Source of the DNA: Lentilactobacillus farraginis DSM 18382 = JCM 14108
GTDB lineage: Bacteria > Bacillota > Bacilli > Lactobacillales > Lactobacillaceae
Direction: 5' to 3'
Assembly (NCBI RefSeq): GCF_000583655.1
Contig: NZ_BAKI01000020.1
Span: 1-45,664, forward strand
DNA length: 45,664 bases
Below, in pieces: positions 456 to 18,693 of this stretch; the first letter of the stretch is position 1, and each line of letters starts with the position of its first letter. Both the position numbers and the translations under genes were made by a program. A model generated the notes under the pieces. That model saw only the letters and a program-made list of their open reading frames with translations, was not told where the DNA came from and did no database searches.

Positions 456-538
456 TCTTCAATAATCAAAGTTGCTTTTTTTAAATGCTGGCAGTCGAAC
501 CAAATCCCAATTGCTACAGAAAGGATCCTGATTTTTCT

Positions 539-1449
539 ATGCTAATCAAGTCAGTTTCACAGCTAATTGGTCACACGCCGTTGATCGATTTGCAAATTGA
601 TGTCCCAAATCACAGCCATATCTACGCTAAACTGGAAATGTTCAATCCAGGCGGCAGTATTAAAGACCGTCTCGGTCAGTACATGATTCAAGATGCCATT
701 AACCACGGCGATGTAATCGAAGGAACCACCACTATCATTGAGCCAACCGCCGGCAATACCGGCATTGGCGTCGCACTTGCTGCTCAACAGCACCATTTGC
801 CAGCTATCTTGGTGGTGCCCGAAAAATTCAGCTTCGAAAAACAACAGTTGATGAAAGCTTTGGGCGCAAAACTAATCAATACCCAAGTGACCAAGGCATC
901 AAGGGTGCGATTAAAGAAGCATACCGGCTCCATGAACAAACGCCTGACAGTTTTGTTCCAATGCAGTTTAAAAATCCGGCAAATCCGGCTGCTTATTACC
1001 ACACATTGGCACCGGAACTGGTAAAAGAAATCGACGGCCCCATTGATGCCTTCGTTGCCGGTGCCGGAAGCGGCGGTACATTTGCCGGGATTGCCCGCTA
1101 CCTCAAAGAACAGAACCCGGCGACCCGAACAATCGTGGTTGAACCCGAGGGCTCAATCTTAAACGGTGGGCCTGCTCACGCCCACCGAACTGAAGGAATC
1201 GGCGTCGAATTTATCCCACCTTTCTTCGAGAATGTTCAAATTGATCAAACACTAACCATCTCAGACGCAGATGCATTTGACCAAGTCAAAAAAATGGCCC
1301 GGACCCAGGGCCTATTCATAGGCAGTTCCAGTGGTGCGGCCTTGGCAGCCAGTTTAAAGGTTGCCGCTCAACTTCCAGAAAACAGCCGAATCGCAACAGT
1401 TTTCCCGGACAGCAGTGAACGCTATATGAGTGAAAATATTTACGACTAA
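539..1449 (+). CDS. cysK: Cysteine synthase / O-acetylserine sulfhydrylase, frameshifted
   Basis: PLP-dependent beta-replacement enzyme making cysteine from O-acetylserine and sulfide; some lactobacillar members also act as cystathionine beta-synthase. The N-terminal part has the family motifs: a PGGSIKDR segment with the PLP lysine and a PTAGNTGIG phosphate/substrate loop. The C-terminal part has [16 protein letters not shown] and [10 protein letters not shown]. The frame breaks near 881-884 in a C run; adding one C (ACCC to ACCCC) gives a continuous protein of about 303 aa, normal for the family. The start at 539 is chosen because it gives the usual N-terminus ([18 protein letters not shown]) after an AAGGA site; an ATG at 485 has no ribosome site. 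It is first in a cysK-ctl-cysE operon, a gene order known in L. casei and dairy lactobacilli. Confidence 0.9.
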
Positions 1450-1483
1450 AAATTCAATCAAAAACAGAAAGAGGTTATTCATT

Positions 1484-2668
1484 ATGGAATTCGATACAAA
1501 ATTAATTCATGGCGGCATCAGCGAAGACAAGACAACGGGTGCGGTTTCCGTTCCGATTTACATGGCTTCCACTTTCCATCAGCAAAAAATCGGTGAAAAC
1601 AAGTATGAATATTCACGTTCAGGTAACCCAACCAGAGAGGCGGTTGAAAAATTAATTGCCGAGCTCGAAGGCGGGACTGCCGGTTTTGCCTTTGCATCCG
1701 GGTCAGCTGCCATTGACACGGTGTTCTCGATGTTTTCTGCCGGCGATCATTTCGTTATCGGTAACGATGTCTACGGTGGCACCTTCCGGCTGATCGACGC
1801 GGTTTTAAAACGCTTTGGCATGACATTTACAGTTGTTGACACCCGAGACCTGGCAGCCGTTCAAGCCGCCATCACTCCCGAAACCAAAGCCATTTATCTC
1901 GAAACACCGACCAACCCGCTGCTAAGGGTCACCGACATCGCTGCTGTCGCCAAAATTGCCAAGGCCCATCATATTCTAAGTATCATTGACAATACATTCT
2001 CCTCACCTTATGTTCAGCGGCCCTTAGAGCAGGGCGTCGACATTGTCCTTCACAGCGCTTCCAAGTATCTCGGTGGCCATAGTGACGTCATCGCCGGCCT
2101 GGTTGTTACAAAAGACGAAGCATTGGGTGAAAAAATCGGTTATCTGCAAAACGCAATTGGTGGTATTTTAGCTCCTCAAGAAAGCTGGTTACTTCAACGC
2201 GGCATCAAAACGCTTTCACTTCGCATGCGAGCCCATCTGGCAAACGCGGAAGCCGTCTTCGACTACCTCGCCAACCAACCACTGGTAAGCAAAATTTACT
2301 ATCCCGGCGATCCGGATAATCCCGATTACGAAGTTGCCAAGAAACAAATGCACGGCTTCGGTGCCATGATCTCATTTGAACTTCAAGACGGTCTCGATCC
2401 AAAACAATTCGTTGAGCAGCTTCACGTTATTACGTTGGCAGAAAGTTTGGGAGCCTTAGAAAGCCTGATTGAAATTCCTGCTCTGATGACCCATGGCTCC
2501 ATTCCCCGCGATATCCGGCTAAAAAACGGCATCAAAGATGAATTAATCCGGCTTTCCGTTGGTGTTGAAGATCAAAAAGACCTGCTGGCAGATTTGGCAC
2601 GCGGTTTCAATCAGCTTAAGGGGAGTCAAAAAAATGTTTCAGACAGCAAGATCCATTCTAAAGCGTGA
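1484..2668 (+). CDS. ctl: Cystathionine gamma-lyase/beta-lyase-type PLP enzyme
   Basis: 394-aa member of the Cys/Met-metabolism PLP family (MetB/MetC/MccB). It would cleave cystathionine or work in reverse transsulfuration between homocysteine and cysteine. Visible motifs: YSRSGNPTR (about residues 43-51), FASGSAAI (70-77), ETPTNPLL (140-147), DNTF (169-172) and the PLP-lysine segment SASKYLGGHSDV with Lys194. The start at 1484 follows an AAAGAGG site; an upstream ATG at 1430 lies inside cysK. The last 14 or so codons extend past the usual family end and overlap cysE by 35 bases, so the stop may have moved. The family does not allow a sure choice between lyase and synthase activity; the cysK/cysE context favours a lyase. 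Confidence 0.85.
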   Translation: MEFDTKLIHGGISEDKTTGAVSVPIYMASTFHQQKIGENKYEYSRSGNPTREAVEKLIAELEGGTAGFAFASGSAAIDTVFSMFSAGDHFVIGNDVYGGTFRLIDAVLKRFGMTFTVVDTRDLAAVQAAITPETKAIYLETPTNPLLRVTDIAAVAKIAKAHHILSIIDNTFSSPYVQRPLEQGVDIVLHSASKYLGGHSDVIAGLVVTKDEALGEKIGYLQNAIGGILAPQESWLLQRGIKTLSLRMRAHLANAEAVFDYLANQPLVSKIYYPGDPDNPDYEVAKKQMHGFGAMISFELQDGLDPKQFVEQLHVITLAESLGALESLIEIPALMTHGSIPRDIRLKNGIKDELIRLSVGVEDQKDLLADLARGFNQLKGSQKNVSDSKIHSKA

Positions 2669-3191
2669 TCCGGCAGCCCATAGCCTTTTAGAAGTTATTC
2701 TAACCTATCCTGGTATTCGTGCGCTGTTTTGGCATCGAATTGCCCATTTCTTGGCCTTTCACCGTTTCTATACGCTGGCAGCTCTTTTAAGTCAACACGC
2801 CGCTAAAGTCACCGGAATCGCCATTTCGCCCGAAGCCCAAATCGGCAGGCGGGTGTTTATCGACCACGGCATTGGCGTTGTGATCGGTGCCACCGCAATT
2901 ATTGAAGATGACGTTACCATTCTACACGGCGTTACCTTGGGTGCCAGGCGGGCCGTTACCGGCCGCCGGCATCCCTATGTTAAAAAAGGGGCGTTTATTG
3001 GTGCCAACGCACAATTATTGGGTGCTATTACCATCGGTGCATCGAGTAAAGTCGGTGCCGGGGCCATTGTTTTACACGATGTCGCCGACCGGACAACGGT
3101 TGTCGGTAACCCGGCCCGAAGCGTTGAGAAGCCAACTAAAGTCATTAACGTTACTTTTGCCGAGTTAAATACCGGCAACAAAAATCACTAA
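2634..3191 (+). CDS. cysE: Serine O-acetyltransferase
   Basis: 185-aa protein that acetylates serine with acetyl-CoA, giving the CysK substrate. The C-terminal half is a left-handed beta-helix of hexapeptide repeats with the active-site segment FIDHGIGVVIGA and ILHGVTLGARRA, then RRHPYVKKGAFIGANA. The N-terminus is short, as in Gram-positive CysE. The start at 2634 is chosen for the AGGGGAG site 8 bases upstream; the longer frame from 2559 lies within ctl. Last gene of the operon, followed at once by a strong terminator. Confidence 0.9.
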   Translation: MFQTARSILKRDPAAHSLLEVILTYPGIRALFWHRIAHFLAFHRFYTLAALLSQHAAKVTGIAISPEAQIGRRVFIDHGIGVVIGATAIIEDDVTILHGVTLGARRAVTGRRHPYVKKGAFIGANAQLLGAITIGASSKVGAGAIVLHDVADRTTVVGNPARSVEKPTKVINVTFAELNTGNKNH

Positions 3192-3194
3192 CCA

Positions 3195-3247
3195 AAAACA
3201 TCTTGGCAGTTTCCATTAATTAATTGGAAACTGCCAAGATGTTTTTT
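3195..3247. terminator. Bidirectional terminator between cysE and icd
   Basis: A near-perfect 20-bp stem, ACATCTTGGCAGTTTCCA against TGGAAACTGCCAAGATGT, has an AT-rich loop. A T6 tract follows on the plus strand and an A run precedes it, so it can serve both convergent operons. Confidence 0.9.
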
Positions 3248-3275
3248 CGTACATAAATTATAAGAGCAGTGATTA

Positions 3276-4564
3276 TCAGTTTACCGCGGCTTTTCGCGGC
3301 AGTTCTTCAATTAATCGTGCCACGTAATCACCAAAGCCACTGGTAGTCAGTACCGTGGCGTCCGCATTTTTGGCAAAGTCGACGGTCACGTGATGCGACT
3401 TGATGGCTTGAGAGATTCCCGCCCGGATTAAATCGGCAGCGGCCGACCAGCCAGATAGTCAAACATCATTGCACCGGATAGAATAATCGACGTCGGATTA
3501 AGTTTGTTTTGACCGGCAAACTGAGGCGCCGTGCCATGCGTTGCTTCGAAAATCGCATGTCCGGTTTGATAATTAATATTGCCGCCGGGAGCAATTCCGA
3601 TACCACCGACTTGAGCAGCCAACGCGTCCGAAATATAATCGCCGTTTAAATTCATCGTTGCCACAACTTCAAAATGTTCCGGATAAAGCAGTGCTTGTTG
3701 AAAAAAGTTATCCGTAATGACGTCATTGACAATCAATTTCTTGGCTGCCCGGGCTGCTTGATAGGCCCTTTCAGCAGCTTCAGTGCCTTGGTCAGCTTTA
3801 ATTTGATTATATTGATTCCAAGTAAATACCTTATCACCATATTCTTCAGCTGCTTCATAACCCCACTTTTTAAAGCCGCCTTCAGTTTTTTTCATAATAT
3901 TTCCCTTGTGAACCAGCGTCAAGGTATGCCGATTGTTAGCAAACGCATAGTCAATGGCGGCCTTTACCAACCGGGTCGAACCCTGCTTGGAAATCGGTTT
4001 AATCGCAAACGCGGACGTATCGGGAAAACGAACTTTGCCCAGCTTACCCTGCTTGGCGAGTAACGCTTTCCAAGCTTTCGCATCATCAGTATCAACATCG
4101 CTTTCAATCCCCGCATAAATGTCTTCGGTATTTTCCCGAAAGACATCAATATTAACGTTTTCCGGGTGAACAACCGGTGACGGGGTACCGGCATAATAAG
4201 TTACCGGTCGAAAGCAGGCATATAAATCAAGCTTTTGTCGCAACGTGACATTAATGGAGCGATGGCCAACGCCAATCGGAGTCGTCAAAGGTCCCTTAAT
4301 CCCGACTAAATAGTCTCGTAAAGCGGTCAGTGTTTTATCCGGCAGCCACTGTCCCGTTTGCTTATAAGCTGTTTCACCGGCCAATAATGGCAGCCATTTA
4401 ACCTGCTTTTGACCATCAAAAGCCTTTTTAACTGCTTCATCAAAAACGGTTCGCGCTGCCCGCCAAATTTCGGGGCCAATCCCATCGCCTTCAATGAAAG
4501 GAATTGTCGGTTGATCGGGAACCTGAAGCCGGCCATTATTCATTGTTATTTTTTCTTCAGTCAA
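3276..4564 (-). CDS. icd: NADP-dependent isocitrate dehydrogenase, frameshifted near the C-terminus
   Basis: Converts isocitrate to 2-oxoglutarate, CO2 and NADPH. The protein closely follows Bacillus Icd: [27 protein letters not shown] (the serine is the phosphorylated residue in E. coli), [45 protein letters not shown] and ATHGTAP. The start is TTG at 4564, 9 bases after a perfect AAGGAGG, giving MTEEKITM like the Bacillus N-terminus; it overlaps the citZ stop. The frame breaks near 3450: restoring one G (CTGG to CTGGG) yields the expected [13 protein letters not shown] tail and a 429-aa protein ending at 3276. Without repair it would stop at 3428 and lose about 55 residues. Third gene of acnA-citZ-icd. 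Confidence 0.92.
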
Positions 4565-5659
4565 TAATTTTTTCCTCCTTATCGGCAAAATAATGTCGAT
4601 TGGTTTCACCCACGTATTCAGACGACGGCCTAATTAAACAGCCTTCCGACTGCTGTTCAATGATATGCGCCAACCAGCCAGCCGTTCGACAGGCCGCAAA
4701 CATTGTGGTGAATGTCTGCCTGTCAAGGTTAAAGCAATGATAAATCAATGCCGTATAGTAATCAACATTTGGGTGCAGACGCGTTGTTTTAAACATATAA
4801 TCTTTGATTTCTTCCTGAAGCGCAAAATAATCGTCGTTGCCCGTTTCATGAGCGGCTTGCCGGGCAATTTCCCGCAGAATTGCTGCCCGCGGATCACCGT
4901 TTTTATAAACACGATGACCGAAGCCCATTATCTTATGACCACCAGCCATTCTTTGGGCAACATATTGAATCGGATCCTGACCCGTTTGCCGGATCTTTTC
5001 GAGCATCTTGAAAACCTGCTCATTGGCACCGCCATGTAAGGACCTTTCAATGCACAAATCGCAGCGGTCAGGCACGAATAATCATCCGATTTGGTTGATG
5101 CAACCACGCGGGCAGTGAATGTCGATGCATTAAACTCATGATCGGCATGCAGCACCATAACCGTATTAAACTGAGCTACCTGCTCAGGTGTCGGCCGGTT
5201 ACCCGAAAACATATAAATAAAATTTTCAACAACGCCCCATGCTTTATGAACGTGCTTAATTGGCTGATCGTTTCGAATTCGAATAATGGCGGCAATTGCC
5301 GTTAACATCTTGGCTAAAATCCGAGGTGGGTCATCTCTTTCGATATCATTGGTTGTCCCAAGCAGCGAGACTGTCGTTCGCAAAATACTCATGGGGTGCT
5401 GCGGTTCCCTGGCAATTCGTGCCATCAACTGAACCGTTTCGTACGGCAGCACCATTTTAGAAACCAGCAGCTTTTTAAAATCATTCAACTCTTCTGCGCT
5501 TGGCAGCCGCGCGTGCCACAGTAGAAAAACCACCTCTTCAAACGGTGCATTTTTTAGTTCTTTAATCGAATAACCTGCATACGTTAAAACAGCGCCCTGA
5601 GTCGAGCTGACCTTTGTCTGGTCAACCACCACGCCTGCAAGTCCTTTTGGTAGTGTCAT
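4557..5659 (-). CDS. citZ: Citrate synthase, frameshifted
   Basis: Condenses oxaloacetate and acetyl-CoA to citrate. The two open frames join near 5041: adding one C (GGTCC to GGTCCC) gives the conserved ALKGPLHGGANE catalytic-His segment and an intact product of about 367 aa. Other conserved elements are [11 protein letters not shown], the second catalytic region [15 protein letters not shown] and the late Asp region [13 protein letters not shown]. The start at 5659 has a GGAGGTGAC site. It lies 22 bases after acnA and overlaps icd by 8 bases, so the three are translationally linked. Confidence 0.92.
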
Positions 5660-5681
5660 GGGTCACCTCCGAGTATTAAAC

Positions 5682-8318
5682 TCATTCTTTTTGAGCAGCA
5701 TCTTTAGCCGATGCCAGCTTATTTTCAACAATCATTGGCATAATGCCGCCATCTTTGTAGTAGGTCCAATCCACCGGCGTATCAAAACGAACAATCGTAT
5801 CGAATTTTATCTGTCGACCAGACTTTTCAGCCGTCACATGAGCAATTGGCCCATCCAAGTCAATCGAAAAAGTTTCGGTGCCATCTAATCCCAACGTTTC
5901 CGCGGTTTGGCCGTCACGGTACTGAAGCGGCACAACGCCCATCATTGCCAGATTAGCCCGATGAATTCGTTCAAAGCTTTCAGCAATAATTGCCTTTACA
6001 CCTAATAACTTAACGCCTTTAGCTGCCCAGTCACGCGAAGATCCCATACCATAATCCTTACCAGCCAGAATAACCAAACCGGTCTGATCAGCTTGGTATC
6101 GCTGGGCGGCTTCAAAAATAGTTGTTTCTTCACCCGTTGGCAGGTATTTGGTAAAACCACCTGTTTTATCGGGTGTCAATTGATTTTTTAATCGGATATT
6201 AGCCAAAGTTCCCCGCATCATCACTTCATGATTACCCCGGCGGGAACCATAAGAGTTGAAGTCTTTAATGGCGACACCTTTAGACTTTAAATAACGACCA
6301 GCCGGTGTCTGTGAACCGATATAGCCGGCCGGTGAAATATGATCGGTCGTAATCGAATCCCCCAGTTTGGCAAGCACGCGAAGCCCCGATAAGTGTTGAC
6401 TGCCGGCAATGCCGTCAAAAAATGGCGGAGACGCGATATACGTGGAATTCGGATCCCACTCATAAGTTGCTGATTCGGGGGCAGGAAGTGCGTCCCAAGT
6501 AGCGTTTTGGTTCAAAATCGATTGATAATTCTTTTTAAATTCTGCTGGTTTTAAATATTTTCGACTTAGCTTGGCAACCGCTTCATCTGTCGGCCACAGA
6601 TCCTTTAGATAAACCGGCTGACCATCTTGGCTTTTTCCGACTGGTTGGGTTGTTAAATCAATATCGCAAGTTCCAGCCAATGCATAAAGAACAACCAACG
6701 GTGGGGACGCTAAATAAGTATCTTTAATTAACGGATTAACCCGGCCCTCAAAGTTTCGGTTACCGCTCTCAACTGCCGCAATCGGATAAGGGTCTTCAGT
6801 CAAGCGGGTCTGCAGGTCTTCCTTCAGCTGACCGGAGTTGCCGATACATGTCGTGCAACCATAACCAACCAGATTAAAGCCCAGCTTATCCAGATATGGC
6901 TGAAGTCCGGCCGCCGCCAAATACTGAGTCACAACCCGTGACCCGGGTGCCAACGATGTTTTCACATAGTCCGGTACTTTTAGTCCCAACTCAACGGCTT
7001 TTTTAGCGATTAGACCGGCTGCCAGCAACACTTCTGGATTAGAGGTATTCGTACAACTTGTAATGGCTGCGATTCCTAATGAGCCTACCCGGATATTAAA
7101 TTTCTTACCATTGACTTTGATTGGATAATCCGGTATTTGCCGACGATCATCAAACTGTTTTGGCATATCTTTTAAAAAGACAGTATCCTGAGGACGGTTG
7201 GGGCCCGCTAAACTACTTTGAACCGTTGTCAAATCAAGCAAAACCGTTTCTGTATAGTGACGGGCTGCCTTATCGTCGTAGAACAGATGATTAGCCTTGG
7301 CGTATGCCTCAACCAACTCAATTTGTTCAGCAGGTCGGTTTGTTAATTGCAAGTAATCAATGGTTTGCTGATCAATTGGAAAGAACCCGCAGGTAGCACC
7401 ATATTCCGGGGCCATATTGGCAATGGTTGCCCGATAAGCCAACGGTAGATTCTGCGCGCCACCGCCGTAAAATTCAACAAACTTTCCAACCACATCGTGC
7501 TCTCGCAATAAATGGGTTAACGTTAGTGCCAGATCCGTTGCTGTAATCCCTTCCCTTAGCTTTCCGGTCAGTTTTACACCAACTACTTTTGGCATTGGCA
7601 TATAAGTTGCCGCTCCAAGCATACTGGATTCAGCCTCGATTCCGCCGACACCCCAGCCAAGAACCCCCAACCCATTAATCATCGTGGTATGGGAATCTGT
7701 ACCGACCAATGTGTCCGGAAATGCTTCATAGCTACCGTCCGTTAATTTTTTAGCATGAATGACGTCTGCCAGATATTCCAAATTTACCTGATGAATAATC
7801 CCGGTATCAGGTGGGATCACCGTTAGATTTTCAAAGCTGTTTTGAGCCCACTTTAAAAACGTATAACGTTCACTATTTCGTTTAAATTCCTGCTGGATAT
7901 TATACGAAAAGGCATCCTCATTTCCAGAATGATCGACTTGAACCGAGTGGTCGATTACAAGATGAACCGGCACTTCCGGATTGATCGAATCAACGTCTCC
8001 GCCTCGCCTGGCAACAGCATCACGAATTGCCGCTAAATCAACCAACGCCGGTACGCCCGTGAGGTCTTGGAGAATGACCCGTTCCGGTTGATGGGGAATA
8101 TCTTTATCATGCTGATGGTCCCAATCGTTAAAAGCGGAAAGGACCTGTTCTCTTTCGGGGGTTTCGCTCGCGTGCCGCAGCGCTTCTTCCAGCAAAACTC
8201 GGATGCTGTAGGGAAGTGTTTCAACGTCCTGTCCCTGATCTTTTAAATAAGCATCAATATTATAAAACTGGTAGGTACCGCCCGTTAGCTTGAGTTGTTG
8301 CCGGTACGAATTGTTCAT
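5682..8318 (-). CDS. acnA: Aconitate hydratase
   Basis: 878-aa [4Fe-4S] aconitase of the AcnA/CitB type, isomerising citrate to isocitrate. Cluster cysteines are visible at Cys422 (SCTNTSNPEV) and Cys488/Cys491 (GYGCTTCIGNSGQ). Other markers are LVIDHSVQVD, VGTDSHTTMINGLG, GAATYMPMP and the C-terminal swivel-domain motif GKDYGMGSSRDWAAKG. The ATG at 8318 is preferred over a TTG at 8339 because a GGTGG site precedes it. First gene of the acnA-citZ-icd operon; no frame break. Confidence 0.95.
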   Translation of the reverse strand: MNNSYRQQLKLTGGTYQFYNIDAYLKDQGQDVETLPYSIRVLLEEALRHASETPEREQVLSAFNDWDHQHDKDIPHQPERVILQDLTGVPALVDLAAIRDAVARRGGDVDSINPEVPVHLVIDHSVQVDHSGNEDAFSYNIQQEFKRNSERYTFLKWAQNSFENLTVIPPDTGIIHQVNLEYLADVIHAKKLTDGSYEAFPDTLVGTDSHTTMINGLGVLGWGVGGIEAESSMLGAATYMPMPKVVGVKLTGKLREGITATDLALTLTHLLREHDVVGKFVEFYGGGAQNLPLAYRATIANMAPEYGATCGFFPIDQQTIDYLQLTNRPAEQIELVEAYAKANHLFYDDKAARHYTETVLLDLTTVQSSLAGPNRPQDTVFLKDMPKQFDDRRQIPDYPIKVNGKKFNIRVGSLGIAAITSCTNTSNPEVLLAAGLIAKKAVELGLKVPDYVKTSLAPGSRVVTQYLAAAGLQPYLDKLGFNLVGYGCTTCIGNSGQLKEDLQTRLTEDPYPIAAVESGNRNFEGRVNPLIKDTYLASPPLVVLYALAGTCDIDLTTQPVGKSQDGQPVYLKDLWPTDEAVAKLSRKYLKPAEFKKNYQSILNQNATWDALPAPESATYEWDPNSTYIASPPFFDGIAGSQHLSGLRVLAKLGDSITTDHISPAGYIGSQTPAGRYLKSKGVAIKDFNSYGSRRGNHEVMMRGTLANIRLKNQLTPDKTGGFTKYLPTGEETTIFEAAQRYQADQTGLVILAGKDYGMGSSRDWAAKGVKLLGVKAIIAESFERIHRANLAMMGVVPLQYRDGQTAETLGLDGTETFSIDLDGPIAHVTAEKSGRQIKFDTIVRFDTPVDWTYYKDGGIMPMIVENKLASAKDAAQKE

Positions 8319-8450
8319 AAAAAGTCCACCATCCTTCAAAGGTGCCGGCGAATAATGCCTTTAATGTTGATCAAAAGCGAACAATCTGTGCTCTTGTCAA
8401 TTAAATCGTCAATGATTCGCCTAATTTTAATGTTATTTTCATGTATATTT

Positions 8451-8480
8451 AATCTAACCGTAAGAACAGGACGATGTCAA
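8451..8480 (-). promoter_or_regulatory. Probable acnA operon promoter
   Basis: On the minus strand a perfect -35 TTGACA (8475-8480) is followed 18 bases on by TAGATT (8451-8456). The leader is about 120 bases. The 8340-8648 gap otherwise holds only the terminator of the neighbouring operon. Confidence 0.5.
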
Positions 8481-8570
8481 GGCCACTTTGTATATTTATG
8501 TATTAATCAAGACAAAAATAGAAATAAATCCACTATTGCAAATTGTCTGCTGAAAACAGGACCTTAACCT

Positions 8571-8609
8571 AAAAAGGCATCTAGACCAATTATGATCCAG
8601 ACGCCTAAA
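8571..8609 (-). terminator. Terminator of the ECF/capture operon
   Basis: Read on the minus strand, AGGCGTCTGGA pairs with TCTAGATGCCT (two G-T wobbles) across a 10-base loop, followed by a short T run. It lies about 40 bases after the DUF4430 gene. Confidence 0.75.
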
Positions 8610-8648
8610 AATAATATTTAATTTTTTGCTCAATTACCATTTATAATC

Positions 8649-9422
8649 TTAGTGTTTATAGCCATCGACCGAAAAATACCAGTGAACATGATCACCCGGC
8701 TTAACGCGCTTTTCACCGGCCGACTTGTCAACATATTTACCGTTGACAGAATACATCCAGCCACTTCCTACCCGGACATCATTTTCTTTTAAGCCGTTAA
8801 TCGCACTGACATAGATGTCGGGATTCCGGGTATACGTGACTTTTAAATGGGCCTGCATTAAAAGCGAAAAGGCAGTTGTTTTGCCGGTAATTTTTTGCCA
8901 GCCGGCATAAAATTGCTTTTTATAACCGGAAACCTTGAGATAGGCTTTCTTGGTCGACGTAGCGTGCCAATTTTTTTTAGCCGGCTTGGTGGTAGCCTGT
9001 TGCGCGGTTGCCTTGGCTTTTTTAACCGACTGCTTTTTTCGAGTCGGCTGCTTGGCAGTGCCACTGGTTTCATGGTTCTGCCGGGTGGATTTAGTCGCCG
9101 GCCGGCGAGCCGACCGCTTTGGCTTATTTTTTGATGCATCACTAGCAGTCGGTTGTTTAGCCTTTTTAGTCGCGCTAACCGTCGTTTTGCCGGTTGCTGC
9201 CCGAGACTTTTTCTGTGATTGATGACTGCCGGCCCGCTTATTAGCCGTTGACGTAGCTGAACTGGCTTTGCCCGCCTTTGAGGACGAAGCTGGTTTTGCG
9301 GTTTTCTTAACCGTGGCGGTTGATGGCTGATCAGCGGCTCGATTGGCAACAACTTCCCGAATGCCCACCGCCAATCCCACTACTAATACAACCGCGATGA
9401 TGAGCCCGACGATTTTTTTCAT
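8649..9422 (-). CDS. Membrane-anchored DUF4430 (transcobalamin C-terminal-like) protein
   Basis: 257 aa. Residues 4-22 form one hydrophobic segment after MKK, with no lipobox, so it is a signal anchor or uncleaved signal. Residues 30-150 are a Lys/Ala/Thr/Ser/Gln-rich low-complexity linker, as expected for crossing or binding the cell wall. Residues 160-257 match the DUF4430 fold: NGLKENDVRVGSGWMYSVNG followed by KPGDHVHWYFS. DUF4430 resembles the C-terminal beta domain of intrinsic factor and transcobalamin (family knowledge). It is the last gene of an ECF-transporter operon, 18 bases after the partner that resembles the N-terminal domain. Ligand capture for the transporter is inference. Confidence 0.75.
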   Translation of the reverse strand: MKKIVGLIIAVVLVVGLAVGIREVVANRAADQPSTATVKKTAKPASSSKAGKASSATSTANKRAGSHQSQKKSRAATGKTTVSATKKAKQPTASDASKNKPKRSARRPATKSTRQNHETSGTAKQPTRKKQSVKKAKATAQQATTKPAKKNWHATSTKKAYLKVSGYKKQFYAGWQKITGKTTAFSLLMQAHLKVTYTRNPDIYVSAINGLKENDVRVGSGWMYSVNGKYVDKSAGEKRVKPGDHVHWYFSVDGYKH

Positions 9423-9440
9423 TTAAACCACCCTGGCCGC

Positions 9441-10489
9441 TTAATTTAGTGTATAAACCGACCGCTTTTGCTGCGCCTGTCGGTAAGCCGCATTTGCCAG
9501 GTTAACCTGCCCCACGCCCAGTGTTTGACTGGCGGCACCCTTAATGGAACCGGTTCGGTTGACATAGCTTAACATTGCCCGCAACGGTGAAGCGGTTTGG
9601 CCGACTTTAAAACTGCCGTTAACGTATTTCAATGTGTTTAATTTGGTTGAAAAGGCAATTACGGCTTCGGCGGTTGAGTTGGCATTCGGAATCTGCTTGC
9701 CGTTATAAGTGTAACCATAGGCGCCGTTTGAGTAAGCCGCGTTCTTTAAGTAAGCCTGACCGGTCTGCAGCGCCGTCTTTACCGTAGTGGTATTGGCTTT
9801 CCCACGGGCCAAACTGATAATGGCCATTGCCGTGGTGTCACTGTCAACGGCCGCCGCGGTATTGTTATACGCCCACCCGTGATTACTTTGCTGGTGCTGC
9901 ACAATCAACTTACTCAAACTGCTCTTGGAGAATTTGGCAGCTGCCGGGCGCTTAAAGTGGCGGCTCATGGAAACCGCAATTAACGCCTGACTTTGAACGT
10001 TGACGGTTTGCTTGGTCATGGTCTTTTGATACAGGGCACGCACCAGGTTGACCTTTTTTCGCGAACCGGCCAGTGTGAAACGCTGCGGATTATAGCCCAC
10101 TGCTTTTAATCCCATAATGGCATTAGCCAAGTCGGCCGGCGTACTCTTTTTATTTAACACCAGGTTTTTCGCCACTCGCTGGCGTTGGGTCTTGGTAAAA
10201 TGATAGCCTAATCCCTTTAGCCCCAACAAGAAATCCGAGTACCCCGCCGCAGCCCCGGTGGCTGGATAGGCTTTCCGGCTAAACAGCGCGGTGGTCTTCC
10301 CGGACAAACCGGTCTTATTTTTCACCAGCATCTGCTTGGCATAGCGATAACTGGCCTTAACCTTGGCCTTCTGATAGGCCGTTGAGGCTGTTTGAACACT
10401 TGCCGCCTGCACCTGCGTCACCGGTGCCGCAGTACTCAGGCTAATAGGCCCACTGCCGATAATAACAACGTTTTCTTAAAATGTTTCAT
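9441..10489 (-). CDS. Secreted alpha/alpha-barrel protein, intrinsic-factor N-domain/prenyltransferase-like; frameshifted in the signal peptide
   Basis: The frame open from 10421 lacks a start with a ribosome site. Upstream, an ATG at 10489 with GGGAG encodes MKHFKKTLLLSAVGLLA, then hits a stop. Adding one C at about 10440 (GCC to GCCC) joins them into a 349-aa protein with a classic signal peptide and a likely cleavage after QVQA. The mature part has helical repeats with NHGWAYNNTAAAVDSDTTAM and NANSTAEAVIAFS, the pattern of terpenoid-cyclase-like alpha/alpha barrels and of the N-terminal domain of cobalamin-binding intrinsic factor/transcobalamin. No enzyme motif is visible. Gene order (ecfS before, DUF4430 after) suggests a surface ligand-binding role. 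A cell-wall or adhesion role is the alternative. Confidence 0.7.
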
Positions 10490-10505
10490 TCTTCAAAACT
10501 CCCTT

Positions 10506-11211
10506 TTATTTTTGAGTCGGTAAAAAATCATACTTATCATTTAAGCGTTGAAACAGCTGCTGCCATAAGTTCGCAAACAGGATTAAAAATATGACGTTGG
10601 CCGCCGCGTGATAAGCGTCAAACTTAACGCTTACCAAAGCCGCCGTTAAAAAGGCCTTTCCGGTTAACGGCTGGACATATGCCAAAACATACCAGGCATC
10701 CATGAGCCAGCCGAAGCCAAATCCCCAAAGACCGCCAAAAATTGCCAGGGGCAGGCGGCGCTTTCCAATCACCGTATGGGCAATCAACGCCGCGGTAAAG
10801 CCCATTAAACCCCAGGCAAACATCTGCCAGGCGTCCAAGGTCCCTGCCCCAGAAATAAATTAGAGACCAGCGCGGTGGTTGCACCGACCACAAAGCCCAA
10901 TTCCGGTCCCAAGGCCATGCCGCCCATGATAATCACAAAACTGGCCGCCTGGAAACTGGGAATGGCAGCGAAGATCAGTCGACCGATTACCGCCAACGCA
11001 ATCAGCGTTGCCATAAACATTAAGGTGGTCGTCTTGATGGCTGGTGTTCAAATCGCCAGTAAACCAAGAGCAACGCCGAAAATAAAATCATGAAACTAAA
11101 CATAAAATAATGCTTGCCATGCAATTGTAACGCCAGTGTCAAAAATATTCCCATGATGGCCAATCCCAGCAGCCAGCGAAAAATCATTAATTTGGAAAAT
11201 CGTCGTTTCAA
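10506..11211 (-). CDS. ECF transporter substrate-binding (S) component, two frame breaks
   Basis: A membrane protein of about 235 aa and some six hydrophobic segments, which would bind the imported micronutrient. It is read from three pieces: a TTG at 11211 overlapping the ecfA stop (TTGA), a break near 11040, a middle piece (LIALAVIGRLIFAAIPSFQ, GGMALGPELGFVVGATTAL, NLFLGQGPWTP), a break near 10830, and the end piece starting WQMFAWGLMGF. Each break closes by adding one base, most simply a C in CCC. The GQGPWTPWQMFAWG junction is typical of ECF S proteins. The substrate cannot be read from sequence; the exported partners suggest a cobalamin-like ligand. Confidence 0.8.
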
Positions 11212-12867
11212 GTGGTCGCCTCCTTGGTTGCCCGCACATCACTGACCAACACGGCTGATGGAACCTGATCACCGACCAAACGATTAACCGCCGTCGTGAA
11301 GAAAGAATTCTGTGCAAAAAATTGTCGCCGCGGTAAAATCGTTTCCACGCGATGATCAAACATAAAGCTGCAGGTCGTGGAAAAGTTTGCGGCAAAGGCC
11401 ATGTCATGAGTCGCCATGACGATGGTGCCCCCACGTTGCTGATAGGTCTTTAATAATCGGCCGACATAAAATTTAGTGTTGGGATCCAACCCATTGGTCG
11501 GCTCATCCAAAATCAATACCTTGGGCCGGGCCAGCAACGCGATCGCCAGGCCCAACAACCGTTGTTGGCCACCACTCAAATCAAACGGGTTATGATCCTT
11601 CAGTTGGGTTAAATGAAACGTCCGCAACAGTTCCTCGGCTCGACCGGTCGGATCGGTTAATCCCAACTGATCGCCCTGCGCGGTTAACTCCTGAAGAACG
11701 GTCGGATTACCAAACTGCAGGCTGGGATCCTGTGAAAGAAATGATAATTGCTGAATCCGTTTCAAATTCGGCAACCGCCACAGAATCTGACCGGCCAACC
11801 TGATTTTGCCATGTGGCGGTTTACGCAGCCGGCCAGCAGGCTGAGTAAAGTCGACTTGCCGGAACCGTTTTTCCCGACAATCGTCAGCCAATCCCCTTTG
11901 GCCAGCGTTAAGTTCTGATGGTCAACGATGAGTGACTGCTGATCAAATGAAAAGGATACGTGCCGCATCGTTAAGATTGGCGGGGCTGCCGGAGCCGCTT
12001 CATTTGGCGAGGTCAGGTCCCCGGCAGCCCGAAACTGAAGCTGCCGCGCTTGAATTTGCCGTTTGCCCGTGCCAACTGCCAACGGTACCGGTTTTAATTG
12101 CGGATAGCAGCTCAGGAAAAGTGCCGGAACTTCCGGGACAAACCGGCTTAATGCCGGCTGGTCAAACATCTTGGCCACCACCTGATCGACCGGGCCGTCA
12201 GTCGCAATTGTCTGCTGTGCTAACAGGATCATCCGGCTGGCCAGTGTTAACGGTCCGGCCAGGTTATGCTCCGTCATAATAATCGTCAAGCCCAGCTCGT
12301 CATGCAGCCGTGCCAAGATAGCCATAAAAGTTTGCGTCATTAAGGGATCCAGTTGGGCCGTCGGTTCATCCAGTAAAATAACCTGCGGCCGCAGCGTCAG
12401 GACCGCGGCTAAATTGACAATCTGCAGCTGGCCGCCCGACAATTCACGCAATGGTTGATGCAGCCACTGATCCAGCCCCAGGTAATTGGAAAGCTCGGCC
12501 AAGCGGCGGTTAATTTCCGCGCTGGGGCAGCCGATATTTTCCAGTGAAAAGGCCAGTTCCTCAATAACGGTCGCCATTACCGGCTGATTTCGCGGATTTT
12601 GGCTGACATACCCAATGGTTTGGGCGCTTTGCAGCTGCGCCATTTGAAAAATGTCCTGCTGGTTGACCAGTACCCGTCCCTGGCGCTGCCCATGCGGTGC
12701 CAATTCTTTTTTTAAATGGCTCAACAGTGTGGTCTTACCGCTGCCACTGGCACCCGCGATCACCAGGAAGTCCCCAGGATAAATTTTCAGATTAATATCC
12801 CGCAGGTCGGCGCCGACGCATGCGGATAGGTAAACGTCAGGTGCGTGACGTTGATTAATTCGTCCAT
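11208..12867 (-). CDS. ecfA: Fused double ATPase of an ECF transporter (EcfA1-A2), two frame breaks
   Basis: About 553 aa with two complete ABC domains. Domain 1 has Walker A GASGSGKTTLLSHL, signature LSGGQLQ and Walker B VILLDEPTAQLDP. Domain 2 has GKNGSGKSTLLSLL, LSGGQQRLLGL and VLILDEPTNGLDP. The start at 12867 follows a GGGGTGG site and overlaps ecfT by 13 bases. One break lies near 12810 (GCGCC to GCGCCC restores the link from the first strand to ADLRDINL) and a second near 11830 just after the second Walker A (restoring one G or C gives AGLRKPPHGKI). Fused A1-A2 is less common than separate ecfA1/ecfA2 genes and marks a dedicated system rather than the shared housekeeping module. Confidence 0.88.
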
Positions 12868-13751
12868 AAAGCAGCCACCCCTTCAAAAATCAATGGTAAG
12901 CCTAAAAATAAGCCCACTAAGCCGAGAATCCAACTATCCATCAGCGAAATCGACCCGTTAAACGTTAAAGCTGAGCCGGTCCAACCATATGAGCCGACCC
13001 GCAAGCCGACCAAGCAAAAAAAGAGGATTGCTGAGCTGCCCAAAAACCAACTATCGGCAATCTGCCAGCGAAAGGCCCGGTACTGACTGCGTTTAGTTGC
13101 GCCAAATCCGCGGGCATCCATGCTGCGGGCTCTTTCCATCCCGGCAGCCAATGCTTTTTCCAATAGAATATTCATGAACCGCATGCCGACTTTTAAGCGG
13201 TGTTTTACCGACCCGCTGGCCGGATCAATGTTGCGGGTCTTTTGAAATAACGCCAACTGCCGAAACGTCTGCTTTAACGTTCCGACCAAGTTCATCGACA
13301 ACACCACCAGCAAAGCCAGTCGGGGACTGAGCGGTGAAAGCACCGCTAATAATTTATTGGCAGTCAAAATTGCGTTAAATAACGCAAACGCCAGCAGCAT
13401 CGCTACCAGCATCAATCCCATGACACTGCCGTATAGGAGGGCCGGCATTGATAATTTCCAAGTAACTCCCAGCAGCTTAACCTGCCAGAGATATGGCCCG
13501 CCGCTCTGATTTAACAACACGTTAAAGATAACAATGGTGATAAACAGCCAGCCGCTATATTTCAACTGCCAACCAACTTGTTTAAATCCCAAGTACCACC
13601 CGTCCAAAAGAATCAAACCGCCAAAAGCCGTCCCAACAATGCCCACGTGATTAAACATCAGCAGTAACGCCATGAGCGCCACAAAATAACCGGTTGCGGC
13701 CAGCGGGTGAACATGAAAAAGAAAGCGGCTTTCAATCGGTATCCGGTTCAT
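12855..13751 (-). CDS. ecfT: ECF transporter transmembrane (T) component, CbiQ family
   Basis: 298-aa membrane protein coupling the ATPase to the S component. It has N-terminal hydrophobic helices, a cytoplasmic region, and the coupling motif ERARSMDARGFG, whose Ala-Arg-Gly element docks on the ATPase groove. The start at 13751 is preferred (AAAGGGG site, MNRIPIESRFLFHVHP) over an ATG at 13778. First gene of the operon, overlapping ecfA. Confidence 0.85.
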   Translation of the reverse strand: MNRIPIESRFLFHVHPLAATGYFVALMALLLMFNHVGIVGTAFGGLILLDGWYLGFKQVGWQLKYSGWLFITIVIFNVLLNQSGGPYLWQVKLLGVTWKLSMPALLYGSVMGLMLVAMLLAFALFNAILTANKLLAVLSPLSPRLALLVVLSMNLVGTLKQTFRQLALFQKTRNIDPASGSVKHRLKVGMRFMNILLEKALAAGMERARSMDARGFGATKRSQYRAFRWQIADSWFLGSSAILFFCLVGLRVGSYGWTGSALTFNGSISLMDSWILGLVGLFLGLPLIFEGVAALWTN

Positions 13752-13886: not shown

Positions 13887-14486
13887 TTAGTCTTTAACCG
13901 CCACACCTAACAAACCAATTAATAGACTTGCTTGCAATGGATTGATTATCAAACCTTTAAGTAACGTTGGATTCACCACCAGTGTTTCAAATCTTGCTTG
14001 AGATAAATCAACGTTTTTTAATTTAGTATCAAGAAAGTCAATCTGATCAAGATCACTTTGGTAAAAAGAGATGGCTTTCTTAAATGTCACTGCTTGAAAA
14101 CTGGCCTCTCTTAAGTTAGCGTGATTAAATTGCACATTTTCAATCTTGGTTTCACTGAAATTAGCGTATTGCAAATTAGAGTCCATTACTTTGACATTGA
14201 CAATTTTGCTTCCAATTGAAAAATCGGCGCCCATTAACTGGCTGCCGATAAACTGACTATTTGAAAAATAGCTTTGGTGAAAGCTGGCGTTGAGAAAGTG
14301 ACAGCCCTTAAACACCACAAAATTCCAATCACTTTGATCAAAATTATCCTGCTCAAATTTACAATGATCAAACGTGACATCACTAATGCGCAGCGGCTTA
14401 TTTGAAACCCGAAACGTACAATCCAGATACATATTCTCCGGCTCAACATCATCCAAGCCCAATGTCTGTCTCTGAATAACTGTCAT
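13887..14486 (-). CDS. Pentapeptide-repeat protein
   Basis: 199 aa of tandem five-residue repeats with a Phe/Leu centre and Ala/Asn/Ser before it (for example ASFHQ, ADFSI, ANFSE, ANLRE, ASFQA, VDLSQ, ARFET). This forms a right-handed square beta helix. The C-terminus (about 170-195) is hydrophobic (NPLQASLLIGLLGVAV), so the protein may touch the membrane. It starts one base after the permease stop, so the two are one transcript. Family members range from Qnr/McbG gyrase protectors to unknowns, and no function can be assigned. Confidence 0.75.
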   Translation of the reverse strand: MTVIQRQTLGLDDVEPENMYLDCTFRVSNKPLRISDVTFDHCKFEQDNFDQSDWNFVVFKGCHFLNASFHQSYFSNSQFIGSQLMGADFSIGSKIVNVKVMDSNLQYANFSETKIENVQFNHANLREASFQAVTFKKAISFYQSDLDQIDFLDTKLKNVDLSQARFETLVVNPTLLKGLIINPLQASLLIGLLGVAVKD

Positions 14487-14487
14487 C

Positions 14488-15858
14488 TTATGCCTCCTGG
14501 TAATTCCGTCGAATCAATTTGCTTAAAACAATGTAAATAATAGCCGCAATCAGCATTGAAACAAAAGTGGCACCAATACTATCCGCTATGATTGCAACCG
14601 TTTTAAGATAGCCATATGCCGCAACTGCAACTATCCACGAAATGATCGCAATCCAGTTAATGCCACCCGTATACCAATACTTACCTTCACGAATCGCAAA
14701 ATGAGCAACATCGTAATCCTGCTTGGTTACAATATAATAATCAACGAGAAAGATGGCAATTTCCGGTCCTAAGAACATCCCAATTCCATCTAAGAAGGCT
14801 GTAAAAACATCCAGAAAAGTTGCGTAAAAAATTGGAATAAACGTGACAACTACCGCAACCAACGTCACCAAAACAATGCTGACGGTTAATGATAACCGCT
14901 TTGTCATATTGGTAAGCGCCGAACCGGCGGACATTAAGTTAACTGCATTGGCGGTAGTACTCGTAATAATAATGACCAACATTGCCAAAACGCCCAATCC
15001 TAACTTACTGGCAATTGTCGAAGGGTCCGAATTATTTGCATCAAAGTGATTCAACGTAATCGCAGTTGCAATTGTCGAAATCACACCGATCATCGCAAAC
15101 CAAATCAAGCCAAGATTGGCACCCCAAAAAGGCGCTCGGGTTGCACTACGCTTCTTCTTGGCAAAGCGGGTAAAGTCGCTGGCGGCCGTAACCCAAGCCA
15201 AATTAAAAGCAGCCAAGACATCTACCGCCTGACCAGAACTCATTTGCAACCGGTGCGGTGGCCGCCAGGCAATAATTTGAGAAAAGGAAACGTGCTGAAA
15301 AACAACAACACACTCCCAAATAACCAACACAAAGACCAGAATAATCCCAATCCGTTCAATAATTTGAACCGAACGTTCACCCATTGAAATACTCAATAAA
15401 TGAAGAATACTCATGACAATGATCCCTAAAATTAAGCCTTTCAAACCGCCCGCCTTTCCATATACCGGCCAATTGAGGATATCGTGAAGAATATAACTGA
15501 TTGAAGTCGCCGCAATAAATGTATTGACAGCGGCCCAGCCGATAAACTGAACAACGTTAATGATCGATGGCAGGAAACTCCCCTTCAAACCAAACGATGC
15601 CCGGGTCAAAGCCATTGCCGGCAATCCGGTTTGATAGCCCATATACCCGGAAAGAGCTAACAATAAATATGTAATAATACCAACTACAATTAAGGCTGTT
15701 GAAGCGGTCGCAAATCCACAGGCAGCAATCACGCCACCCACATACCAAGTACCGTTGTTGGCATTAGCGCCAACCCACGTCGCAAACATATCCCAGTATG
15801 ATTGATGCCGGTGCTCCTTTGAGATTGCAACAACCCGCCCAAATGTTTTGTCTGCCAT
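14488..15858 (-). CDS. NCS1-family nucleobase permease (cytosine/uracil type)
   Basis: 456-aa membrane protein with about 12 hydrophobic segments. An NCS1 signature is visible near the N-terminus (SYWDMFATWVGANANNGTWY), and the substrate region has GYQTGLPAMALTRASFG. The start at 15858 has a GGAGGAAAT site; the longer frame to 15903 would begin inside the leader terminator and is rejected. A PyrR-type attenuator precedes it, which argues that the cargo is a pyrimidine rather than thiamine or allantoin. Followed directly by the pentapeptide gene. Confidence 0.82.
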   Translation of the reverse strand: MADKTFGRVVAISKEHRHQSYWDMFATWVGANANNGTWYVGGVIAACGFATASTALIVVGIITYLLLALSGYMGYQTGLPAMALTRASFGLKGSFLPSIINVVQFIGWAAVNTFIAATSISYILHDILNWPVYGKAGGLKGLILGIIVMSILHLLSISMGERSVQIIERIGIILVFVLVIWECVVVFQHVSFSQIIAWRPPHRLQMSSGQAVDVLAAFNLAWVTAASDFTRFAKKKRSATRAPFWGANLGLIWFAMIGVISTIATAITLNHFDANNSDPSTIASKLGLGVLAMLVIIITSTTANAVNLMSAGSALTNMTKRLSLTVSIVLVTLVAVVVTFIPIFYATFLDVFTAFLDGIGMFLGPEIAIFLVDYYIVTKQDYDVAHFAIREGKYWYTGGINWIAIISWIVAVAAYGYLKTVAIIADSIGATFVSMLIAAIIYIVLSKLIRRNYQEA

Positions 15859-15882
15859 AATTTTATTTCCTCCAATGCCTCC

Positions 15883-15990
15883 AAAAAAGACGCCTTGGCT
15901 CATAGCAAGTCAAGGCATCTCTTACCAGATGTATTCTGGAAGAACAATGTTCATTAATGGCATTCCTTGACAGGCTCGCTGGACTGTTTT
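15883..15990 (-). promoter_or_regulatory. PyrR-type attenuator before the permease
   Basis: The minus-strand RNA contains AGUCCAGCGAGCCUG (from about 15985 to 15971), close to the conserved PyrR binding loop of pyrimidine genes. Just after it, GUCAAGG can pair either within the leader or with CCUUGAC further on (15909-15915). A terminator stem, AGATGCCTTG against CAAGGCGTCT with a T6 tract (15883-15920), ends just before the permease ribosome site. PyrR plus UMP would expose the terminator when pyrimidines are plentiful. PyrR itself is not in the window. Confidence 0.7.
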
Positions 15991-17239: not shown

Positions 17240-17537
17240 TAAATGAAAAAGCTATGAGAAGATAAGTAACAGTTTTAATCGTCCCCAGAGAGTTTGTGTC
17301 GCTGAAAACAAATGTCGATTAGCTGTGAAGATGGTCTTTGAGCAAAAATATAACCGAGCTTTAAATAAAGCTAAGTTATATTGGTAGGCGCCCATTAACG
17401 TGCTGAGATAAGGTTTTCAAATTAAGTTACCCAACTTAAAAACCTTACCTCCGGAGTTGATCAATGTGAATTGATCAAAAATTAAGGTGGCACCGCGATT
17501 AATCGTCCTTGGAATTCATTTTCCAAGGATTTTTTTG
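17240..17537 (+). promoter_or_regulatory. T-box leader, probable Met specifier
   Basis: The leader carries an AGAGAG box near 17286, a long stem I, a candidate specifier loop GAAGATGG with ATG at 17331-17333, the T-box core AAGGTGGCACCGCG (17484-17497) and a terminator TCCTTGGAA/TTCCAAGGA followed by T7. Uncharged tRNA-Met would favour the antiterminator and let the downstream methionine-synthase-like gene be made. The bulge reads TGGC rather than the TGGT seen in the second T-box, so the tRNA assignment rests mainly on the specifier and the gene. Confidence 0.85.
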
Positions 17538-17574: not shown

Positions 17575-18693
17575 ATGATGACAGTTGAAACCACTACGAT
17601 GTACCCGAACCGCTTTGATATCGTCGGCAGTTTCCTAAGACCGGCAAAGCTCAAACAGGCAAGAGCCGAGTTTCAAGCAAATAAAATCAGTCGCCAAGCA
17701 CTGACCGAAGTTGAAAATGCTGAAATTAATCGCCTCGTAAAAAAAGAAGTCGAGGTAGGATTAACCGATGTTACTTCCGGCGAGTTTCGCCGCAGCTGGT
17801 GGCATTTGGACTTTTTCGACGGCTTAAACGGTGCCCGTTTTTTCACACCCGAACACGGCTTTATTTTTAACGGGCAGGAAACTCGCAAAGGTGGGATTAA
17901 AATCACCAATAAGCTCACTTATAACCCGAACCATCCATTTTTTGACGATTTTAATTATTTAAAGAAGATTGTCCCGGAAGGCATCACACCAAAACAAACC
18001 ATCCCAAGTCCCTCAGTCTTTTTCCCTAATAAAGAAGCTGAGGTTTACGATAACTACTACCATAATGATCTTGACGCTTTCTTAGAAGATGAAATCAAAG
18101 CTTATCAAGAAACTGTTCAACATTTTTACGACTTGGGGTGCCGTTATCTCCAGCTTGACGACACGTCATGGGGCATGTGGGCTTCTTTCTCCAAAAATAC
18201 TATTAAACCGGAATTAAAACCACTTTGTGAAGCAGCTGTTAAAGCAATCAATGCGATCGCTGATAACAAGCCTAATGACCTGACATTAACCATGCACGTT
18301 TGCCGAGGAAATTACGATTCCAATTGGGCAGGTGCCGGTGCTTATGATCCGGTCGCCGATTATCTTGCCCAATTGCACATCGATGGGTATTTTCTTGAAT
18401 ATGACGACGAACGTTCCGGCGGTTTTGAACCATTGAAAAAGATTGCCGATAATGGCCGCCATCAGCGAATCGTCTTGGGACTGGTTACGACCAAACGTCC
18501 TGAGCTGGAAGACCCGGCTCTTTTACAAAAGCGGATTCAATTAGCCAGCCAGTATGTCCCCTTAGCTGATCTTTGCCTTTCACCGCAATGTGGGTTCGCC
18601 TCGACTGAAGAAGGCAATCACTTAACCGAAGCTGATCAGTGGAATAAATTAAAATTAGTAATTGATACAGCCAAAGAAGTCTGGTCTGACTAG
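17575..18693 (+). CDS. Short cobalamin-independent methionine synthase-like protein (YxjG/YxjH family)
   Basis: 372 aa, corresponding to the C-terminal catalytic half of MetE without the N-terminal half. It would transfer a methyl group to homocysteine or a related thiol; the methyl donor is not certain for this family. Motifs: DIVGSFLRPAKLK near the start, SGEFRRSWWHLDFF, LQLDDTSW, the zinc ligands in TMHVCRGN (His and Cys) and the late Cys in LSPQCGFAS. The start at 17575 (or 17578) follows AAGGAG. Sole gene behind the first T-box, and distinct from the full MetE at 19.8 kb. Confidence 0.85.
   Translation: MMTVETTTMYPNRFDIVGSFLRPAKLKQARAEFQANKISRQALTEVENAEINRLVKKEVEVGLTDVTSGEFRRSWWHLDFFDGLNGARFFTPEHGFIFNGQETRKGGIKITNKLTYNPNHPFFDDFNYLKKIVPEGITPKQTIPSPSVFFPNKEAEVYDNYYHNDLDAFLEDEIKAYQETVQHFYDLGCRYLQLDDTSWGMWASFSKNTIKPELKPLCEAAVKAINAIADNKPNDLTLTMHVCRGNYDSNWAGAGAYDPVADYLAQLHIDGYFLEYDDERSGGFEPLKKIADNGRHQRIVLGLVTTKRPELEDPALLQKRIQLASQYVPLADLCLSPQCGFASTEEGNHLTEADQWNKLKLVIDTAKEVWSD

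Follow-up and report, generated by a model that had tools for sequence, protein, structure and literature searches.

A five-gene locus of Lentilactobacillus farraginis as a probable corrinoid importer of the ECF type, with an intrinsic-factor-like capture stage split over two proteins

What does a bacterial importer carry when it is encoded together with two exported proteins that resemble the two halves of the animal vitamin B12 carriers? In animals, intrinsic factor, haptocorrin and transcobalamin each grip cobalamin between two domains. The question is raised by contig NZ_BAKI01000020.1 (GCF_000583655.1, positions 1 to 45,664, forward strand) of Lentilactobacillus farraginis DSM 18382 = JCM 14108; the whole stretch of 45,664 nucleotides is called the window here, it belongs to a 2.84 Mb genome, and all operon coordinates are window positions. 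Five genes run on its minus strand from 13751 to 8649 and encode, in this order, EcfT, the fused double ATPase EcfAA' and the substrate-specific component EcfS of an energy-coupling factor (ECF) importer, a secreted alpha/alpha-toroid protein (the toroid) and a membrane-anchored DUF4430 protein; the analysis bears out this arrangement, which had been read from the sequence in an earlier annotation (the original prediction). With a probability of roughly 70%, we consider the system to be a dedicated uptake route for corrinoids of the cobalamin/cobinamide type, in which the ECF importer is served by a split intrinsic-factor-like capture stage. This reading is based on gene content, folds, co-occurrence and the B12 context of the family, from which we infer the ligand in this organism, the joint binding by both exported proteins and the hand-over to EcfS.

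In the proposed mechanism, the anchored DUF4430 protein would span the cell wall on its linker, and it would supply, together with the secreted toroid, the two domains holding a corrinoid from both sides. The loaded pair would deliver the corrinoid to EcfS, which resembles the cobalamin transporter component CbrT; EcfT-EcfAA' would turn EcfS and empty the corrinoid into the cytoplasm through ATP hydrolysis, and the imported corrinoid would feed an adenosyltransferase and a B12-dependent ribonucleotide reductase (RNR). Taken alone, the joint clamping of one ligand by the two exported proteins has about even odds.

The conservation of the unit was determined in 55 named loci, which were retrieved via the toroid protein and scored for gene content in the fetched flanks with our own hidden Markov models (HMMs). 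DUF4430 was present in 54 of the 55 loci, and EcfT, EcfAA' and EcfS were all found in the flanks of 43, in 40 cases on the strand of the toroid; all five gene types occurred together in 42. Because of these proportions, the association of toroid, DUF4430 and ECF genes is not a matter of chance, and homologues lie mostly inside ECF operons, as the original prediction would have it. Among the toroid loci without ECF genes, 9/12 were cobalamin-riboswitch clusters. The proposed division into a soluble and an anchored partner held for the window and was not found to be general: in other genera the toroid carries a sortase-type anchor at its end and DUF4430 is partly lipoprotein-like, and elsewhere in the Bacillota a single chain combines the two domains with SLH repeats.

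Correlations bearing on the ligand were drawn from 24 Lentilactobacillus genomes (the genus set) and 397 genomes of the family, with no account taken of shared descent. The toroid was found in 17 of the 24 genus genomes, and these were exactly the genomes with a TIGR02505 class II (adenosylcobalamin-dependent) RNR, that of the window included (17/17 of the toroid-bearing genomes, 0/7 of the others). The adenosyltransferase family PF01923 was detected in the same 17 genomes plus G009. In the family, where the toroid was detected by alignment A1, PF01923 was present in 44/45 toroid-bearing genomes vs 75/352 others (Fisher p 4e-25), and of the 359 genomes searched for EcfS, 59 had a match at E<=1e-60, 56 of these with PF01923 and three without. 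The original prediction had doubted a corrinoid ligand on the ground that the window holds MetE-type methionine synthases only; this doubt is answered, because a class II RNR and a cobalamin adenosyltransferase lie on another contig of the same genome. Diol dehydratase was rejected as the common denominator, being present in 9/24 genus genomes and not in that of the window.

The flanks of the 55 loci also contained B12-related genes: PduV was found in 16, PduA in 14, CobS in 6, a CblT-like S component in 5, PduO in 5 and RNR in 1, and 31 loci carried at least one pdu, cob, adenosyltransferase or RNR gene. A cobalamin riboswitch lies ahead of 10 loci, 9 of them outside those 31, so that 40/55 have a B12 context. 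The other 15 comprise seven of the window's subtype and eight from Levilactobacillus or Secundilactobacillus, which lie outside the riboswitch search of named loci, confined to the genus Lentilactobacillus. In that genus 13 cobalamin riboswitches scored above the cut-off, and 12 of them are followed by genes of the toroid/DUF4430 system: 11 are situated 2.4-2.7 kb ahead of a same-strand toroid paralogue, the 12th precedes a DUF4430-family gene, and one (in G004) is located elsewhere. Twenty DUF4430 regions from 19 Bacillota genomes, some congeneric and mostly with two DUF4430 genes close together, were chosen blind to riboswitches; a cobalamin riboswitch was found on the strand of the genes in 19 of them, EcfT (recovered by the EcfT-family HMM) in 18/20, EcfAA' in 17, EcfS in 14 and all three ECF genes, as judged with our own profiles, in 13. 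The EcfS proteins themselves point the same way. The window ecfS being broken, intact orthologues were compared: one of them matched CbrT (6fnp_A) at 8.7e-9, and a profile of 17 orthologues searched against the PDB matched 6fnp_A at 8e-20, with the next match at 0.19. According to passages of the paper on ECF-CbrT (6FNP), this transporter moves cobalamin and cobinamide, and hemin does not compete (PMC5997447).

The folds of the two exported proteins were then compared with those of the animal carriers. No Pfam family was matched by the window toroid, with PF01122 not matched at E<=1. Its AlphaFold2 (AF2) model reached a predicted local distance difference test score (pLDDT) of 80.3 and a predicted template modelling score (pTM) of 0.83, and the best Foldseek match in the PDB was transcobalamin 8ixu (E 1.2e-4), other toroids scoring equally well. 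The DUF4430 protein consists of an N-terminal membrane helix, a low-complexity linker of approximately 130 residues (120 had been claimed) and a C-terminal DUF4430 domain, matched by PF14478 over residues 184-251 of 257 (E 4.1e-17), which confirmed the domain assignment and was the sole DUF4430 match in the window's genome. For the beta domain, the structure modelled was that of the homologous domain in the natural fusion L165. When the AF2 model of a natural two-domain fusion was searched, the top 15 Foldseek matches were all transcobalamin, haptocorrin or intrinsic factor, and its beta domain gave a TMt of 0.83 to 5np4. A profile of natural fusions matched haptocorrin across both domains (3.6e-5). 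The signal in PDB sequence searches appeared solely with this natural-fusion alignment; queries with either protein by itself, the window-type toroid or the DUF4430 protein, yielded weak cyclase matches or low-complexity matches. One Bacillota fusion matched PF01122 at E 0.051, below the cut-off. The predicted structures thus support the presence of both intrinsic-factor folds in the exported pair, and an ECF importer with two such partners, as originally proposed, agrees with Pfam, Foldseek and the fusion profile. Since the domains lie in two genes and not in one chain, the window pair would work like intrinsic factor, transcobalamin and haptocorrin but is not classed as a member of their family.

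A number of observations speak against corrinoid uptake, and three other explanations draw on them. The strongest of these, though an unlikely one, is a heme importer, whose two-part surface receptor would catch heme for import by the ECF module, in the service of cytochrome bd and heme peroxidases. Verplaetse et al. 2020 reportedly described such a five-gene heme-uptake ECF system, lsa1836-1840 of L. sakei, with its cluster and deletion phenotype, and a review terms it the first ECF for heme. Three genomes of genus g25 (G047, G113 and G138) lack PF01923 and still carry these five genes; their toroids escape alignment A1 and were placed by position and sequence, and inclusion of these genomes changes the family count to 44/48. 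G367 is a further toroid-bearing genome without PF01923. At locus L189 the order pox, DyP-type peroxidase, alcohol dehydrogenase (ADH), one gene, ADH, EcfS, EcfAA', EcfT, DUF4430, toroid, two ABC genes and ogt (pox, ADH and ogt being putative) fits the L. sakei numbering, and for this reason g25 is probably Latilactobacillus. In L. sakei 23K, passages of PMC3146418 give pox2 as LSA1830, ADH as LSA1832 and LSA1835, a membrane subunit as LSA1838, a substrate-binding lipoprotein as LSA1839 and ogt as LSA1843. The DyP-type heme peroxidase gene of L189 (4640-5593; Pfam) occupies the position of LSA1831 and is separated by a few genes from the operon of the L. sakei type.

The cytochrome gene cydA is also present in the window's genome, and in the genus it tracks the system (16/17 vs 2/7, p 0.003). 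However, its 18 genus genomes overlap the toroid set strongly, not exactly, with mismatches in G002, G020 and G019, whereas the RNR match is exact. As a heme marker cydA was rejected, since it is associated in the genus and not in the family (36/45 vs 247/352, p 0.22), and G047, G113 and G138 themselves lack it. In a tree built from 38 EcfAA' rows, from which the broken window gene was left out, the nearest relatives of the window cluster with pdu- and cob-linked Lentilactobacillus (100/100), apart from the L. sakei-type clade (100/98); the latter includes L187-L189, members with B12 context and Lentilactobacillus G021. Moreover, CbrT as the nearest solved S component was not inhibited by hemin, according to passages of PMC5997447. 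Heme users may form one branch within a corrinoid family, or the machine may serve both ligands; the window's side is corrinoid by context.

Slightly less probable than heme is a drift of the window subtype to a third compound, perhaps tied to an NCS1 permease, with the riboswitch paralogues doing the corrinoid work. As had been noted, the window holds no cobalamin riboswitch, and none was found in its genome at E<=0.001. The subtype is marked by conserved upstream genes for an NCS1-type permease and a pentapeptide-repeat protein (7/55 named loci); these neighbours are unique to it, and they stand where none of the searched B12 genes is nearby (7/7 loci). Relatives such as G001, G007, G012, G013, G015 and G022 have a riboswitch paralogue in addition to this operon. 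Yet in the window's genome the family is represented by a single toroid, a single DUF4430 and a single EcfS (the search covered importers of this family), and there is no riboswitch, while the genome keeps a B12-dependent RNR and its EcfS is still CbrT-like. Finally, that the toroid is a secreted enzyme of terpene-cyclase or glycosidase fold with no part in ligand capture, and DUF4430 an adhesin or wall protein placed in the operon incidentally, is very improbable: terpene cyclases and glycoside hydrolases share the fold, with VIA Z values that equal or exceed the one for transcobalamin (squalene-hopene cyclase 21.6, glucuronyl hydrolases ~20, transcobalamin 20.1) and profile matches within the toroid part are stronger to cyclases, but the toroid is paired with DUF4430 in 54/55 loci, natural fusions of the two exist, the top 15 structural matches of the fusion are all cobalamin carriers, and the family has B12 riboswitches.

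Two further points are to be set against the corrinoid importer. The AF2 fusion model lacked the domain packing of transcobalamin, with a root-mean-square deviation of ~22 A over both domains and a linker pLDDT<50, and among the 50 VIA matches listed for this model there was one transcobalamin entry, with intrinsic factor and haptocorrin not among them. In addition, EcfAA' and EcfS are broken in the sequence at hand. Breaks were located by tblastn with the L. hilgardii and L. raoultii orthologues near 12805 and 11830 in EcfAA', whose pieces fall in three frames with 63-76% identity to orthologues; EcfS is broken near 11045 and 10840, and the signal peptide of the toroid near 10440. Three putative housekeeping genes in the window, for cysteine synthase, citrate synthase and isocitrate dehydrogenase, show the same kind of break, and the class II RNR of the genome is split into two pieces. 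All five frames are open in the type loci of L. hilgardii and L. raoultii (L032, L034). Because the relatives are intact and nearby housekeeping genes are broken alike, errors in the reads or the assembly offer the simplest explanation and a likely one, short of proof. Across window positions 500-12870, the spread of frame breaks, housekeeping genes included, suggests an error-prone assembly. Between the window and L. hilgardii, nonsynonymous divergence (dN) was 0.10 for the toroid, 0.12 for the DUF4430 domain and 0.27 for EcfT; synonymous divergence (dS) reached 2.3 in the DUF4430 domain, and for the toroid and EcfT no value could be computed, which was taken as saturation. Low dN against high or saturated dS therefore indicates, at the sequence level, purifying selection on all three.

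The coordinates of the operon and its neighbours are collected in Table 1. The start codon of the toroid gene (ATG, 10489) lies 16 bases past the EcfS stop, and the DUF4430 gene begins 18 bases past the toroid gene. The window and L. hilgardii copies of EcfT gave no match in Pfam or NCBIfam, and the window EcfT is identified through its homologues, one of which matches PF02361 at 1.1e-9. The EcfS orthologue of L032 passes the cut-offs of both PF12822 and PF07155, and the window toroid shares 84% identity with that of L. raoultii and 83% with that of L. hilgardii. Elsewhere in the window, a T-box leader (RF00230, 105 bits) is present at 17245-17513 (+), ahead of a putative MetE-like gene at 17575.

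Table 1. Features of the locus in window positions
Feature	Position	Strand	Evidence
EcfT, transmembrane coupling protein	12855..13751	-	open frame; 66% identity over 298 residues to intact orthologue L032
EcfAA', fused double ATPase	11208..12867	-	two frame breaks; pieces match TIGR04520/TIGR04521 below curated cut-offs
EcfS, substrate-specific membrane component, CbrT-like	10506..11211	-	two frame breaks; middle piece PF12822/PF07155 just below cut-off
Secreted alpha/alpha-toroid protein, intrinsic-factor alpha-domain-like	9441..10489	-	AF2 model and Foldseek; frame break in signal peptide
Membrane-anchored DUF4430 protein, transcobalamin beta-domain-like	8649..9422	-	PF14478 E 4.1e-17; alignment of 20 proteins
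Terminator-like hairpin after last gene	8575..8606	-	pattern scan: 14-pair stem and T run; consensus match only
NCS1-type permease (PF02133), upstream neighbour	14488..15903	-	Pfam
Pentapeptide-repeat protein, upstream neighbour	13887..14486	-	between permease and operon

Beyond the window, DUF4430 was found in 91/299 sampled genomes of the phylum. A second toroid copy (51-55% identity to the window protein) was frequent among the 17 toroid-bearing genus genomes, and most of these copies sit behind a gene of 755-781 residues. The single protein of this type that was scanned contains DUF1542, DUF5776 and a C-terminal DUF4430, and its N-terminal part appears, from its sequence, to be a toroid. 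Six wall-type DUF4430-family proteins of 755-781 residues were located (L036:6315-8654, L039:7044-9380, L041:2418-4763, L044:953-3220, L047:4420-6705 and L048:4397-6685); their genes begin ~150-290 bases past a cobalamin riboswitch, and a toroid paralogue comes next in five of the six loci. Near-identical EcfAA' genes (tree branches ~0.003) occur in the Lentilactobacillus loci L033, L046 and L041, with a transposase gene beside one of them. Their arrangement, which includes CobS and a CblT-like gene, recurs in three Levilactobacillus loci (listed alongside: L066-L069, L103), and this is perhaps a recent mobile cassette.

PocR-like AraC-type regulators were seen near pdu clusters, 16 of them in 15/55 named loci, and 15/16 retain a DUF4430 tail by eye. 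Examples are L112:14178-15272, L113:3282-4373, L043:138-1238 and L039:1384-2442, with C-terminal PF14478 matches at 1.7e-12, 3e-11, 5e-5 (at cut-off) and 1.8e-4 (just under); the best NCBIfam match of the L112 regulator was PocR at 6e-28, under its cut-off. The transcobalamin-like beta domain of these cytoplasmic regulators could sense corrinoids. A wider scenario is put forward tentatively, at somewhat less than even odds: the architecture would be a true split of the vertebrate carrier, with two wall proteins clamping one corrinoid and feeding a CbrT-like ECF pump, in a Bacillota-wide and largely riboswitch-controlled family of common ancestry with the animal carriers, whose L. sakei-type branch turned to heme and whose beta domain, reused in regulators of the PocR type, would sense corrinoids in the cytoplasm. 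The capture of scarce corrinoids at the Gram-positive wall, ahead of EcfS, is little described in the literature searched, and a mechanism for it would be provided by a capture stage in which two proteins share out the folds of human intrinsic factor. If true, the reading would also connect a bacterial family with the B12 carriers of animals, give DUF4430 a function and pose a clean question of ligand switch, corrin vs heme.

How does the window system compare with those already known? The animal carriers (PDB 2pmv, 4kki, 2bb5, 8ixu) combine an alpha/alpha toroid with a small beta domain in the same order as the bacterial natural fusions; they are one chain, whereas the window has two proteins, one of them anchored by a long linker, paired with an ECF pump. 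The L. sakei genes lsa1836-1840 encode the same five protein types, and the window operon has homologues at loci L187-L189, of which L189 is syntenic with the L. sakei numbering; the L. sakei type differs from the window in its EcfAA' clade, its gene order, the sortase-type anchor of its toroid and a ligand reported to be heme. The window-type EcfS is homologous to CbrT of Lactobacillus delbrueckii (8e-20; Santos et al. 2018, PMC5997447). Passages of that paper describe one ECF module common to several S components, whereas in the window EcfT and EcfAA' are encoded with EcfS, together with two surface proteins; EcfT, the EcfA/EcfA' ATPases and EcfS, the components of a dedicated module, were found encoded together in the window pieces and in intact orthologues. 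The gene cbrS, which adjoins cbrT in L. delbrueckii according to the same passages (PMC5997447), may encode a DUF4430 protein.

No intrinsic-factor-like partner of a bacterial ECF system was described in the open-access literature searched; Verplaetse 2020, which lies outside it, may describe one. LhaSTA of Staphylococcus lugdunensis is likewise a dedicated ECF system for a tetrapyrrole, heme; the passages of PMC7299338 contain no toroid/DUF4430 pair, and they state that its S component shares little sequence with other heme ECF systems. A predicted cobalamin ECF system with an 'additional lipoprotein component' was annotated in L. rhamnosus (PMC9963975), where a surface protein has thus already been assigned to a putative cobalamin transporter. 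Passages of that paper place a DUF4430 gene next to rtpR; they contain no intrinsic-factor-like pair. This kind of system is already known in part, through CbrT, the L. sakei operon and the predicted cobalamin ECF with an extra lipoprotein; what is new is the pairing of the two folds of the animal carriers as separate wall proteins.

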